Shown here: positions 54,600-58,975 of the stretch, piece after piece
Position numbering within the stretch: the stretch's first letter is position 1
Layout: each line of letters opens with the position of its first letter
NCBI RefSeq assembly: GCF_018069755.1
Contig: NZ_JAGQDE010000001.1
Location: 62,001 to 126,000 of the forward strand
Direction of reading: 5' to 3'
Source of the DNA: Ideonella aquatica
GTDB taxonomy: Bacteria; Pseudomonadota; Gammaproteobacteria; Burkholderiales; Burkholderiaceae_C
DNA length: 64,000 nucleotides
Translations under genes and position numbers: made by a program
Notes under the pieces: model-generated
The model's database searches: none
What the model saw: only the letters and a program-made list of their open reading frames with translations
Told to the model about the DNA's origin: nothing

Positions 54600-54701
54600 C
54601 TTGGGGGGGGGCGGGGCGCCGCCGGAGGGCAGCACCCGAGGGGGCCGGATTATCGGCTATCGTTCCACGGTGGCCGGGGCGCCGACACGGGGGAGCAGCG
54701 A

Positions 54702-54815
54702 ATGAAGCTGAGCGAGTGGCTGGACCAGTGGAGCCTGAGTGGGCGCATGACCCTCGACACCAGGCTGTTCATCGTGGCGGGGCGCGACGACCTGACGCGC
54801 CAGCCCGGCGCTTGA
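54702..54815 (+). CDS. Short ORF translationally linked to the TIR-NACHT sensor gene
   Basis: A 37-codon frame (MKLSEWLDQWSLSGRMTL...) with a strong ribosome binding site (GGGGGAG, six bases before the ATG). Its TGA stop overlaps a TTG start candidate of the sensor gene (TTGA), which would couple their translation. The sensor gene itself has no visible ribosome binding site. The first residues recall a small helical protein family I associate with similar loci, but this cannot be verified and the rest does not match, so it may be a truncated relic acting as a leader. Confidence 0.45.
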   Translation: MKLSEWLDQWSLSGRMTLDTRLFIVAGRDDLTRQPGA

Positions 54816-57748
54816 CACTGGCCGTGAACGCTCCACTGAACGGCCTGCGCGTCTTCATCAGCTACCCCCGCGGTGGCTGGACGCAGAGCCAGGCCCATAG
54901 CGCCGAGCGCCATCTGCGCGCGCTCGGTGCCGATGTGTTCCTCGACACCAACAGTGTGCGCGAAGGTGACGACAACGCCCTGAACCGGATCGAGGCCGGC
55001 CTGCGCCGTGCCCAGGTGGTGGCCTTCTTCGCCGGGCCGGACACCGAAGAGAGCGTGTGGCAGCAGCGCGAGGCCCGCCTGGCCGAGTTCCAGCACATCC
55101 CCATCGTGCTGGTGCAGACCTCGACCGTGCCGCCGCCGTGGTACCTGGGCGAGAAGCAGCCCGTCAATGGCACCAGCTCGCCAGAGCAATGGTTGCCTCG
55201 CCTGGCCGACGCCTTGCACAGCCAGGCGCGGGGCGCCCCGCGTGACGCGTCCGATGTGGCCGACCCGACAGCGCCGGCGGCCGGCCTGCGGCGGCTGGAG
55301 GTGGCCTACCTGGCCCACCACCTGGCCGTGGCCTTTGTTGACCGCCCCGGCCGCTATGTGGCCCTGCAGGCGCAGGCGCGTGCGTCGGCCTCGCCGCTGC
55401 GCAGCCGCAAGGACCTGCCCTTCAATGTGGACCTGGTCCTGCAACGCTTTCAGCCCGCCGAGCAAGGGGCCCAGACCCGCGAGCCCCAGGTCTATGCCGA
55501 CGTACTGTCGGCCTACGCCGAGATCCTGGCCCGGCCTGGCCCGGCAGGCGCCCGGCTGGCGGTGCTGGGCGAGCCCGGCGCCGGCAAGTCCTTCTCGCTG
55601 GAGCGGCTGTTCTGTCACCTGGCCGACGCGGCACTGGCCGATGCCCAGGCCCCGCTGCCGCTGTTCGTGGCCCTGGGCGAGTGGACCCGCGCCGACCAGC
55701 GCTTCGACGACTTCCTCGAGACCCGCCTGCGCCCCCACGGATTGGATCTTCACTGGCAGACCCTGCGCGACGGCGGCCGAGCGGTGCTGCTGCTGGATGG
55801 CCTGAACGAGCTCCCGGTGTCGCAGCGCCTGCACAAGTCGGCCCAGGTGCTGGCGCTGGCGCAAGACCGCCGCTGGGCCGGGGTGATCGTCAGCTGCCGC
55901 GAGCGCGACTTTGCCGACCCGGCGCTGCGCCTGCCCTACGACACCTTGCACCTGCAACCGCTGACACCGCTGCAGGTGTGGAACTTCCTGCACCGCTGGG
56001 CCGAGCGCGATTGGCCACCCGAGCGGGCCGCCCAGGAGGCCCGGGCCAGGTTCTGGCAACTCGCCGCCGGCCCGGCCCTGGCCGACGCGGCGGCGCAGGT
56101 GTGGGCAGCTTGGCAGGGAGCCGGCGCCAGCCTGGCGCAGTTCTGGCAGGCGACCGAGGTGCCTCGGGATGATCCCGATGTCTTCAGCCAGACTGACATT
56201 GAGCAGGACGAGTTGTGGCGCGACTTGCGCGACAACCCACGCAGCCTGCTGCGTCTGGCCGCCAGCCCCTACTGGCTGACCCTGCTGGCCATGCTGCCCG
56301 AGGTGCCCTCAGCCCGGCAGCGCCTGGTGGACGGCTTCCTGACCATCGTCCACGAGCAAGGGGCGCGCCGTTGCCGTGCCCGGGGAGCGGCCAGCGAAGT
56401 CCCCGATGTCGACCGCTGGCGGCAAGCCCTGGAAGACACGGCGCTGCAACTGCAGGGCCTGGAGACCCAGGGGTCCACCGGCGCGCTGAGGCTGGGTGCG
56501 ATGCGCCAGATCGGCAGACCGGCGGGGCCGGGCAGCGACGCCAGAACCCACCTGGTGCGGCTGGACCGGCCCAGCAGCCTCAGCGACGAGGCGCTGGAGT
56601 TCGCCATCGGCGTGCAGGTGCTCAAACAGGTTGGCGAGCAGATCGCCTTCACCCACCAACTGCTGCAGGAGGCGCTGTCGGCCACCGCGCTGGCCGACCT
56701 GGCACTGGCGGGCCACCTGCCGGCCAGCGCACTCTGGCCGCCCGATCGCTGGTGGCAGCGCACCGGCTGGGAGGTGGTGGCCGAGATGGCGGGCGAAAGC
56801 CTGGCCGGCCACCCGGACGGTGCCCTGGCCCTGGTGTCCTGGTTGGCGCGGGCGCAGCCAGAGGTGGCATCGCAGGCCTGGATCGCTGCCGGTCGTCCCA
56901 CGCTGCCACCGGACCGTGCCGAGCAGATTCGCCATACCTGGTTTCCGCGTCTGACCACTGAAGCGGAACAGGCGCCCGAGGCGAGGCTGCACGCACGATC
57001 GGCCATTGGCCTGGCGCTGGGGCGTTTCAGCCTGGATCAACGGCCCGGCATCGGCGTGCGCGCCGATGGCCTGCCCGACATCGATTGGGTGCGTTTTGCC
57101 GACCAGCAGGGCTTCCTGTACCAAGGCCAGCGTCATCCGCCCCTGCCGGCTTTCGAGCTGGCCCGCTACCCGGTGACGCAGGCGCAGTTCCAGGCCTTCA
57201 TCGACGACGGCGGCTACGCGGTCGACACGCCGTGGTGGAACGGCCTGGACCAGCGGTTGGATGCCCCAGCGGAAGCGGCCTGGGCCGAACCCAACGCGCC
57301 CCGTGTCACGGTCAGTTGGTTCGAAGCGGTGGCCTATTGCCGCTGGCTCAGCCACCGCCTGGGTGAGCCGATTCGCTTGCCTACTGAGAAGGAGTGGGAG
57401 CGTGCGGCAGCCGGCACCGAGGGCCGAAACTACCCCTGGGGCGCCGAATGGGACCCCAATCGGGTGAACGCCGAAGAACGCCTAGGCCGCACCTGTGCGG
57501 TCGGCCTGTTCCCTGAAGGAGCTAGGTCGGATGTGCATGACCTGATAGGCAACGTCTGGGAGTGGTGCCTGAACGAGTTCTACGACCCCGAACGGGTCGA
57601 GGTCGTCGGGAAGCAGTCGCGGGCACTACGCGGAGGATCTTGGTTCAACTCTGCCAGCTACGCGCGCGCGTCCGTCCGCGGCGACTACCGCCCCGGCTTC
57701 CGCGAAAGTGACATCGGGTTTCGGTTGTGTCGAGCGTCCCCCATCTAG
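54812..57748 (+). CDS. TIR-NACHT-FGE-fold sensor protein with DGR-type variable C-terminus
   Basis: A 978-residue protein from a coupled TTG start (a GTG four codons later is the alternative). Residues about 10-120 are a TIR domain (LRVFISYPRGGW, FLDTNSVREGDD, and SVWQQREA with the likely NADase Glu near 87). About 190-640 is a NACHT-type STAND NTPase: Walker A GEPGAGKS at 253-260, Walker B VLLLDGLNEL with Asp329, and sensor-like VIVSCRERDF. About 745-978 is an FGE/sulfatase-modifying-factor, C-type-lectin-fold domain (YPVTQAQFQAFI, VSWFEAVAYCRWLS, DLIGNVWEWC, LRGGSW, IGFRLCR). FGE catalytic cysteines are absent, so it likely binds ligand. The final 41 codons form the variable repeat. Inferred role: an immune or self/non-self receptor in which ligand binding triggers NACHT oligomerisation and TIR NAD+ consumption. 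Confidence 0.85.
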   Translation: MTLAVNAPLNGLRVFISYPRGGWTQSQAHSAERHLRALGADVFLDTNSVREGDDNALNRIEAGLRRAQVVAFFAGPDTEESVWQQREARLAEFQHIPIVLVQTSTVPPPWYLGEKQPVNGTSSPEQWLPRLADALHSQARGAPRDASDVADPTAPAAGLRRLEVAYLAHHLAVAFVDRPGRYVALQAQARASASPLRSRKDLPFNVDLVLQRFQPAEQGAQTREPQVYADVLSAYAEILARPGPAGARLAVLGEPGAGKSFSLERLFCHLADAALADAQAPLPLFVALGEWTRADQRFDDFLETRLRPHGLDLHWQTLRDGGRAVLLLDGLNELPVSQRLHKSAQVLALAQDRRWAGVIVSCRERDFADPALRLPYDTLHLQPLTPLQVWNFLHRWAERDWPPERAAQEARARFWQLAAGPALADAAAQVWAAWQGAGASLAQFWQATEVPRDDPDVFSQTDIEQDELWRDLRDNPRSLLRLAASPYWLTLLAMLPEVPSARQRLVDGFLTIVHEQGARRCRARGAASEVPDVDRWRQALEDTALQLQGLETQGSTGALRLGAMRQIGRPAGPGSDARTHLVRLDRPSSLSDEALEFAIGVQVLKQVGEQIAFTHQLLQEALSATALADLALAGHLPASALWPPDRWWQRTGWEVVAEMAGESLAGHPDGALALVSWLARAQPEVASQAWIAAGRPTLPPDRAEQIRHTWFPRLTTEAEQAPEARLHARSAIGLALGRFSLDQRPGIGVRADGLPDIDWVRFADQQGFLYQGQRHPPLPAFELARYPVTQAQFQAFIDDGGYAVDTPWWNGLDQRLDAPAEAAWAEPNAPRVTVSWFEAVAYCRWLSHRLGEPIRLPTEKEWERAAAGTEGRNYPWGAEWDPNRVNAEERLGRTCAVGLFPEGARSDVHDLIGNVWEWCLNEFYDPERVEVVGKQSRALRGGSWFNSASYARASVRGDYRPGFRESDIGFRLCRASPI
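57623..57745 (+). repeat. DGR-like variable repeat (VR)
   Basis: The last 123 coding bases of the sensor gene align with the downstream template-like segment, apart from a 12-base unit missing here. By hand, about 20 of some 30 mismatches lie opposite adenines of the template. In the ten codons starting GTCCGCGGCGAC all ten mismatches do. The block ATCGGGTTTCGGTTGTGTCG near the end is identical and fits an initiation-of-mutagenic-homology site. Confidence 0.75.
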
Positions 57749-57773
57749 TCCACTGACTTCGGTCGCTCTGGAC
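57748..57773 (+). other. Hairpin at the end of the VR gene
   Basis: GTCCA pairs with TGGAC, with an inner GAC-TTCG-GTC mini-stem (UUCG-type tetraloop). It starts in the stop codon, directly after the VR. In characterised DGRs a hairpin just downstream of the target repeat promotes retrohoming, and none is seen after the template copy here. The stem is short, so coincidence is possible. Confidence 0.4.
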
Positions 57774-57865
57774 ACGGATCCCCTGTACTCTGGCAGCCCG
57801 CTGTCCATCTTTCGAAAGAGGGTTCTTTCACCAGGCCCCGTCGGGCTCCGCGGGATCAGTGGCGT

Positions 57866-58000
57866 GTGCTGCGCGGCGAGTCGTGGAACAACACGGCCGA
57901 CAACGCGCGTGCGTCCAACCGCAACAACAACCACCCCGACAACCGCAACGACAACCGCAACGACAACATCGGGTTTCGGTTGTGTCGTGCGTCCCACATC
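57866..58000 (+). repeat. DGR-like template repeat (TR), adenine-rich
   Basis: A 135-base direct repeat of the end of the sensor gene, 120 bases downstream of it. Read in the sensor frame it encodes RGESWNNTADNARASNRNNN and then HPDNRNDNRNDNIGFRLCRA: codons are dominated by AAC, GAC and CAC, the usual design of a DGR template. A 12-base unit AACCGCAACGAC occurs twice in tandem. No independent gene start or ribosome binding site precedes it, so it is probably non-coding template RNA. Between the sensor stop and prmB there is no protein gene; a reverse transcriptase would be expected here but is missing. Confidence 0.75.
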
Positions 58001-58017
58001 CGGCATCGGCTGGCCAG

Positions 58018-58104
58018 GGCGTGCGCTTCACGCACCGCCGCTACGACCTGTTCAACCCCCACAACGGCGACATGCTGCTGCTGGGCTCGCTCAAGCCGTT
58101 CTGA
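58018..58104 (+). pseudogene. Possible 3' remnant of an unidentified gene
   Basis: Directly after the template repeat one frame reads GVRFTHRRYDLFNPHNGDML and then LLGSLKPF before a stop. Its composition looks like a real protein C-terminus, unlike the surrounding sequence, and its frame has no start of its own outside the template repeat. It overlaps the end of prmB by 14 bases. It may be the tail of a gene truncated by rearrangement. The family is not recognised. Confidence 0.3.
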
Positions 58105-58975
58105 GCAGCGCCTGCCGGGTGAGCAGCAGCACCTGGTCATCGCCCGCACTGGTCGGCAGCCACACCGCCTCCAGCCGCGGGAAGGCGGCCTCGAAGAAGG
58201 GCCGCTCGTGGCCGATTTCCAGCACCAACACGGCCTCGTCGGTCATGTGCTCGGCGGCCTGGGCCAGCAGCGGGCGGATGAAGTCCATGCCGTCGGTGCC
58301 GCCAGCCAGGTTGCCGCTCAGCGCTATCTCGGGCTCGGCGCGGTACTCGGGCGGCAGCGCGGCCATGGACTCGGCGTTGACGTAGGGCGGGTTGCACAGG
58401 ATCAGGTCGAAACGCCGGCCGGCCACCGCGGCCAGGCCGTCGCCCTGAACGAGCGTGATGCGGTTGTTCAACTCGTGGCGCTGCACGTTCAGTGCGGCCA
58501 CGGCCAGCGCATCGGTGCTGAGGTCGGCGCCGGTGACCTGCACGTCGGGCCAGGCCATCGCGGCCAGCACGGCCAGGCTGCCGTTGCCGGTGCACAGGTC
58601 CAGCACCTGTTGGGTCCGGTCGCTGAGCCAGGCGTCGATGGTGCCGTCGGCCAGGCATTCGGCGATCAGGCTGCGCGGCACGATGACGCGCTCGTCCACG
58701 GTGAAGGGCACGCCCTGCAGCCAGGCTTCGCCGGTCAGGTAGGCGGCGGGGCGGCGGGTGGCAATGCGCTGTTCCACGATGTCCAGCGCGCGCTGCTGGG
58801 CAGCGGCGGGCGGGGTGGACTCGGCCACGTCTTCCAGCGCGTCCAGCGGCTGTTTCATGGCCCACAGCACCAGCCAGGCGGCCTCGTCGAAGGCGTTGGT
58901 CGTGCCATGTCCAAACGAAACGCCCGCCTCCTCCAGGCGGGCGCTGCAGCGCTCGATCAGCTCGATCACGGTCAT
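58091..58975 (-). CDS. prmB: Ribosomal protein L3 glutamine methyltransferase PrmB
   Basis: A 294-residue SAM-dependent methyltransferase that methylates a glutamine of 50S protein L3 during assembly. SAM motif [20 protein letters not shown] and the glutamine-binding signature [20 protein letters not shown] distinguish N5-glutamine methyltransferases; the N-terminal [20 protein letters not shown] and length fit PrmB rather than PrmC. Its ATG overlaps the dapE stop by four bases (ATGA), which sets the start. Confidence 0.9.

Follow-up and report, generated by a model that had tools for sequence, protein, structure and literature searches.

Does the pair of direct repeats at the end of a TIR-NACHT gene of Ideonella aquatica still diversify that gene, or does it record a diversification that has come to an end? 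The pair lies in a 64,000-nucleotide (nt) stretch of contig NZ_JAGQDE010000001.1 (positions 62,001 to 126,000 of the forward strand), here called the window; coordinates given without a locus number are positions in it, and L, G and C numbers denote loci, genomes and contigs of the own genome, respectively. A sequence-only reading of the window had taken the repeats for the template repeat (TR) and variable repeat (VR) of a diversity-generating retroelement (DGR), and the gene for a sensor that "is, or was, hypervariable". We find a genuine TR/VR pair, and one of DGR type. Of the two tenses, the data agree with "was" and not with "is": searches yielded no DGR reverse transcriptase (RT), and drift between the repeats is heavy. 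The pair does not look active and the sensor looks frozen in one form, and we consider it very probable that the locus is a degenerate DGR in which the sensor has been kept and fixed. The features that carry this reading are as follows.

54824 to 57748, forward strand: TIR-NACHT-FGE target gene (the sensor), about 974 amino acids, from its open frame and Pfam matches; the start codon is uncertain, the listed open reading frame (ORF) beginning at 54716.
57143 to 57730, forward strand: FGE (C-type-lectin-like) domain, ending in the VR, from Pfam and from PDB sequence and fold matches.
57626 to 57745, forward strand: VR, the sensor's final 40 codons (120 nt), from the codon alignment to the TR.
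57869 to 58000, forward strand: TR, a template-like copy with many AAC codons, similar to the TRs of loci L066 and L069.
57966 to 57987, forward strand: 22-nt block identical in TR and VR (VR copy 57711 to 57732), from the codon alignment.
57944 to 57967, forward strand: two tandem copies of the 12-nt CGCAACGACAAC, seen in the sequence of the TR alone; the VR and the TR of L069 are shorter here by the length of one unit.

The sensor has the layout of a STAND/NACHT conflict receptor, with an N-terminal TIR (Pfam TIR_2, 8e-9), a central NACHT and a C-terminal FGE domain (FGE-sulfatase, 1.7e-43). This agrees with the TIR-NACHT identity first proposed, although the NACHT match (8e-6, 26.2 bits) falls 0.5 bits under the 26.7 cut-off; the P-loop reads GEPGAGKS. 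The VR occupies the 3' end of a C-type-lectin/FGE-fold target gene, as in DGRs, with a predicted role in ligand binding. A sequence match (E 2e-9) and a fold match (E 4.3e-12, from a model with a predicted local distance difference test score of 80.2 and some weak stretches) link the FGE domain to the Treponema variable protein 2y3c, while many FGE and EgtB enzymes are among the matches and several of them equal or beat 2y3c. The latter is the Treponema denticola variable protein 1, which we take to be a DGR target; it shares the FGE/C-type-lectin-like fold with the window domain, but is a 294-residue chain without TIR or NACHT fusion, whereas the window FGE is fused to both. By analogy, the FGE tip would sense a ligand, the NACHT would oligomerise and the TIR would serve as the effector.

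The TR begins 120 nt past the sensor stop codon and is a direct repeat of the VR, as the sequence-only reading had described. That reading had also proposed to count mismatches by template base and to search the whole genome for further copies. Codon alignment of the two repeats, with 120 positions and a single 4-codon gap for which six placements were tried, yields 31 mismatches. In five of the six placements these fall on 20 of 29 TR adenines and on 11 of 91 other TR bases; the least favourable gives 18/27 and 13/93, so that the Fisher p for adenine enrichment ranges from 1.0e-8 to 2.7e-7. At codon positions 1 and 2 the contrast is sharper, with 18–20 of 27–29 adenines mismatched against 2–4 of 51–53 other bases. 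Between TR 57915–57944 and VR 57672–57701 all ten mismatches are on TR adenines, exactly as first read, and the identical block towards the 3' end is likewise genuine, if 22 rather than 20 bases long. The block lies where the initiation-of-mutagenic-homing site of a DGR would presumably sit, and is a candidate for that role. Beyond it the VR has CCC and the TR has CAC, a difference also seen in L068 and L069. The contrast is smaller when blastn is left free to place gaps: over 162 columns, 13 of them with gaps, 18 mismatches then fall on adenines and 19 on other bases. The asymmetry is weak when counted by VR base, 7 of 16 VR adenines being mismatched. A search of the own genome with the TR returned, besides the TR itself, only the VR as a strong match (E 3.6e-10); the runner-up stood at E 0.014, and no further copy was significant. 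The TR peptide had zero matches at E 0.01 in phage and plasmid collections, and the predicted RNA fold of 57749–58115 was no more stable than shuffled sequences (z 0.06).

The assignment to DGRs is further borne out by relatives that carry an RT. Species genomes were scanned with a two-sensor alignment and two peptide patterns, at least 80 loci being kept, and a DGR-RT profile was built from the RTs of L066 and L069. With this profile an RT was detected in 9 of the at least 80 loci, L066 and L069 included and L061 partial; shorter RT pieces occur in L060 and L067. In both L066 and L069 the order is NACHT-FGE target, TR, DGR-type RT, the RTs carry IGNLTSQ and YxDD, and the TRs are AAC-rich like that of the window and occupy the same place relative to the target. 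The N-terminal domains of the two targets are unlike that of the window sensor (a weak Mrr-type match and EAD8, respectively). From the mismatch pattern and these relatives together, we infer that the window VR was once rewritten by adenine-directed retrohoming. RT-bearing loci also occur within the genus: that of G302 (L180 7376-11640) has its RT genes in tandem, and within an 80-nt segment of its repeat pair all 13 mismatches are at adenines, the counts over 125 nt being 17 adenine and 3 other.

No RT was found at the sensor/TR locus, an absence that the sequence-only reading did not mention: the DGR-RT profile gave no match up to E 10, with filters off, among window ORFs of at least 30 amino acids. 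Nor did RVT_1 and DGR-RT profile searches of the own genome (5.17 Mb in 58 contigs, 99.99% complete, the one genome examined for the species) find a DGR RT. The only RVT_1 match is a 196-codon fragment on contig C5 (L001 1219-1806), which is also the only match of the DGR-RT profile (E 4.6e-15, as compared with 2.6e-142 and 1.9e-114 for the RTs of the same-genus genomes G307 and G302). It covers only profile positions 2–102 of 205, its frame is without YxDD, and it was ruled out as a DGR RT. The fragment adjoins a gene that we read as an IS3-type transposase, and the sister species G299 has an RT fragment of equal frame length and bit score. With no DGR RT found in the genome or in the window ORFs, we reject a DGR active in cis.

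The repeats themselves have also diverged in ways other than adenine replacement. Non-adenine mismatches number 11–13 of 91–93 positions in the codon alignment, nine of them at third codon positions, of which eight are silent on the TR codon. Together with a 12-nt indel, this is not the non-adenine identity that ongoing retrohoming would keep. An extra tandem CGCAACGACAAC, missed at first, makes the TR exceed the VR by 12 nt and sets a spacing of 21 codons in the window TR against 17 in the VR and in the L069 TR; similar units neighbour the duplication. The TR also has GAG where the VR codes a glycine that is nearly invariant across 16 FGE domains. Because of the extra unit and this GAG, the VR was not recently copied, over its full length, from the TR as it now stands.

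For comparison, ten RT-bearing pairs (L065, L066, L068, L069, L077, L084, L087, L129, L179 and L180) had 1–4 non-adenine mismatches in 60–126 positions. These were initially selected by an adenine-bias threshold, and their ends were cut where non-adenine mismatches cluster, whereas the ends of the window pair were fixed. We therefore repeated the comparison by blastn with neither threshold nor end rule, for 106 FGE C-termini from 85 loci (L180 not included). Ten VR/TR pairs from eight RT-bearing loci then had 0–3 non-adenine mismatches, the adenine/other counts being 23/0 (L065), 12/1 (L066), 17/1 and 19/3 (L069), 14/2 (L077), 19/1 and 13/1 (L084), 15/0 (L087), 9/1 (L129) and 11/0 (L179), as compared with 18/19 and 13 gap columns for the window pair. 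L060, which holds an RT piece only, gave 22/2, and no pair was obtained from the RT-bearing L061 in this rerun. The window pair has thus drifted more than nearly every RT-bearing pair compared, L068 being the exception.

We propose that an ancestral DGR, arranged as target, TR and RT, would have diversified the tip of the FGE domain through adenine-directed mutagenic retrohoming. Its RT part would later have been lost, or else the target and TR would have arrived without it, and retrohoming would have ceased. The TR would then have decayed, by the 12-nt duplication and the change at the conserved glycine codon, as the VR remained under protein constraint. Under such constraint the non-adenine differences are expected to fall mostly at third positions, as they do, and the sensor is therefore read as a receptor that is now probably fixed. 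Several points weigh against this reading. An RT could sit in a gap of the 58-contig assembly or on a lost plasmid, only one genome of the species was seen, and the frames of both VR and TR are intact. The selection threshold and the end rule of the initial comparison both favour the drift contrast. RT-bearing L068 has drifted too (in the rerun two of its genes gave adenine/other counts of 12/9 and 18/22), so drift alone is no proof that an RT is absent. L068 is a contig of an Accumulibacter metagenome-assembled genome with several FGE genes, where one VR matches the TR well and another is the 18/22 case.

The fate of the RT, and whether the element arrived complete, bear on the site itself, for which two further features are needed.

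54601 to 58115, no strand assigned: stretch with sensor and TR between an ABC-F gene and prmB (gene names by our reading), missing here from all 15 other genomes of the genus that were searched.
58003 to 58104, forward strand: 33-codon fragment that looks coding from its third positions (our reading), placed where the RT sits in L066 and L069.

The ABC-F/prmB junction is without sensor and TR in all 15 other genomes of the genus; 12 of them have approximately 5–69 nt between the aligned flanks, and three (G076, G303 and G307) have 0.6–1.3 kb of other genes there. A stretch of 17–22 nt just upstream of ABC-F (54642–54663) is common to the window, G076 and G307, a hint that the sister species may have deleted the sensor region. 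Because the site is variable and this stretch is shared, the gain of the region is undated, and an attempt to date it from the empty site was dropped. The TR/VR non-adenine divergence of 12–14% is close to the 12.3% by which fourfold sites differ from those of G299, the nearest relative, a match that is suggestive only. The full sensor occurs only in the own genome among the 16 of the genus, other matches at E 1e-10 being to FGE parts. At E 1e-40 it is found in 2 of 299 family genomes, its own and G227, and at E 1e-20 three plasmid records match 26–31% of the query. The G227 homolog is also TIR-NACHT-FGE (43–44% identity), with no TR-like copy in the 18 kb around the gene; elsewhere in G227 there is an RT-profile match (E 2.3e-32). 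The fragment at 58003–58104 has no match in Pfam or plasmids and, at E 0.001, was found in its own genome only among 399 family genomes. A short coding-looking fragment without Pfam match (54702–54815) lies at the other end of the sensor stretch.

The arrival of target and TR as an RT-less module, as opposed to loss of the RT in place, is a variant of the degenerate-DGR reading that we hold to be a serious possibility, somewhat short of an even chance. It accords with the absence of the stretch in 15/15 genomes, the lack of an RT remnant in the window and the similarity of the TR/VR divergence to the G299 fourfold-site value. A locus in Planctomycetota (L117 2836-6005) offers a parallel: a TIR-FGE gene whose NACHT match is weak (20.4 bits against the cut-off of 26.7) is followed, approximately 110 nt after the stop codon, by a TR. 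The contig, of 12.6 kb, has no RT, though one may lie on another contig. Of the mismatches in the L117 pair, which also has 3 gaps, 15 are on adenines and 7 on other bases; a shorter core has 12 and 2. On the other side, the counts are small, the site is variable, with other genes there in three genomes, and the stretch common to two genomes hints at deletion in sister species, which leaves the gain undatable.

Two explanations depart further from a degenerate DGR. The pair might still be diversified in trans by a DGR RT that sits on a replicon missing from the assembly or that a mobile element brings in transiently. Both repeats are intact and share the 22-nt block, the genus includes RT-bearing species, and Dore et al. 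2024 (PMC10907252) propose action in trans for Thiohalocapsa DGR 4 and 5. We nevertheless think this improbable, given an assembly of 99.99% completeness with no DGR RT found, the 11–13 differing non-adenine positions and a TR 12 nt too long for the VR to be its full-length copy. Slightly less probable again is that the TR is a decayed tandem duplicate of the sensor 3' end with no DGR history, its adenine bias arising from a low-complexity expansion rich in AAC. The 12-nt duplication and its similar neighbouring units are in keeping with such an origin; the concentration of mismatches on adenines at codon positions 1 and 2 is not, and neither are L066 and L069, which have an RT and carry a like AAC-rich TR at the corresponding position with respect to the target.

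Among DGR targets, CLec/FGE proteins that bear NACHT, KAP or TIR domains are described in Dore et al. 2024 (PMC10907252), as are degenerate RT-less loci. The cellular clade-5 DGRs treated there have STAND/NACHT-CLec targets that resemble the window in their FGE-type C-terminal VR and, in some cases, TIR effectors. The window differs in the drift of its pair and in that searches yielded no DGR RT, and the likeness is not a clade assignment. RT-less DGR fragments of Nanoarchaeota are discussed as fossils or as remotely diversified in Paul et al. 2015 (PMC4372165); these share with the window adenine-biased VRs at places without an RT, but the targets described there are without database homologs, whereas that of the window is a TIR-NACHT-FGE protein. 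Such targets and RT-less fragments are therefore already in print, and we make no claim that frozen TIR-NACHT-FGE pairs are absent from it. What is fresh is the combination of an adjacent target and template, no DGR RT found, measurable decay, and a second sensor in the same genome without TR or RT. If the degenerate-DGR reading is right, the locus shows a route from a hypervariable immune-type receptor to a fixed one, with template and target side by side as the record, and TR/VR drift becomes a rough relative clock for the end of retrohoming. The same-genus DGR genomes G307 and G302 make the comparison testable.

The second sensor lies on contig C55 (L020 2947-6483), where a release-factor-like gene, which we read as prfC, comes immediately after a gene for a KAP-NTPase-FGE protein. 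No TR-like copy was found in the 14 kb around either the C55 FGE gene or that of contig C34, and, as noted, the genome yielded no DGR RT. The ortholog in G307 (L179 5990-9439, 51–54% identity) lies by the same release-factor-like gene, and between them, in order from the target, lie an RT, a candidate accessory protein (Avd) that matches bAvd, and a TR. Of the 16 genomes of the genus, two have the full KAP-FGE protein, while G181 and G309 match it in part; the release-factor-like gene occurs in all 16. Ungapped comparison of the C55 VR with the G307 TR gives a weak enrichment, 16/29 adenines against 30/100 other bases being mismatched (p 0.012). Since this is weak, a DGR past for C55 rests mainly on synteny with G307, which suggests that C55 would have lost its TR and RT rather than never having had them. 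It is tempting to generalise to "generate, then freeze", whereby DGRs of this lineage would be temporary generators of recognition tips, and RT loss would turn a variant that proved useful into a fixed, germline-encoded immune receptor, at two loci of the own genome (TIR-NACHT-FGE and the C55 KAP-FGE) and independently in a planctomycetotal TIR-NACHT-FGE; we regard this as speculative and, taken as a whole, rather unlikely. Nucleotidyltransferase and HepT-type genes adjoin the G307 KAP-FGE DGR locus (L179 11304-11943). A second, partial nucleotidyltransferase/HepT-type copy precedes the target (L179 5505-5790), and similar DNA is present at C55 (L020 2429-2886).
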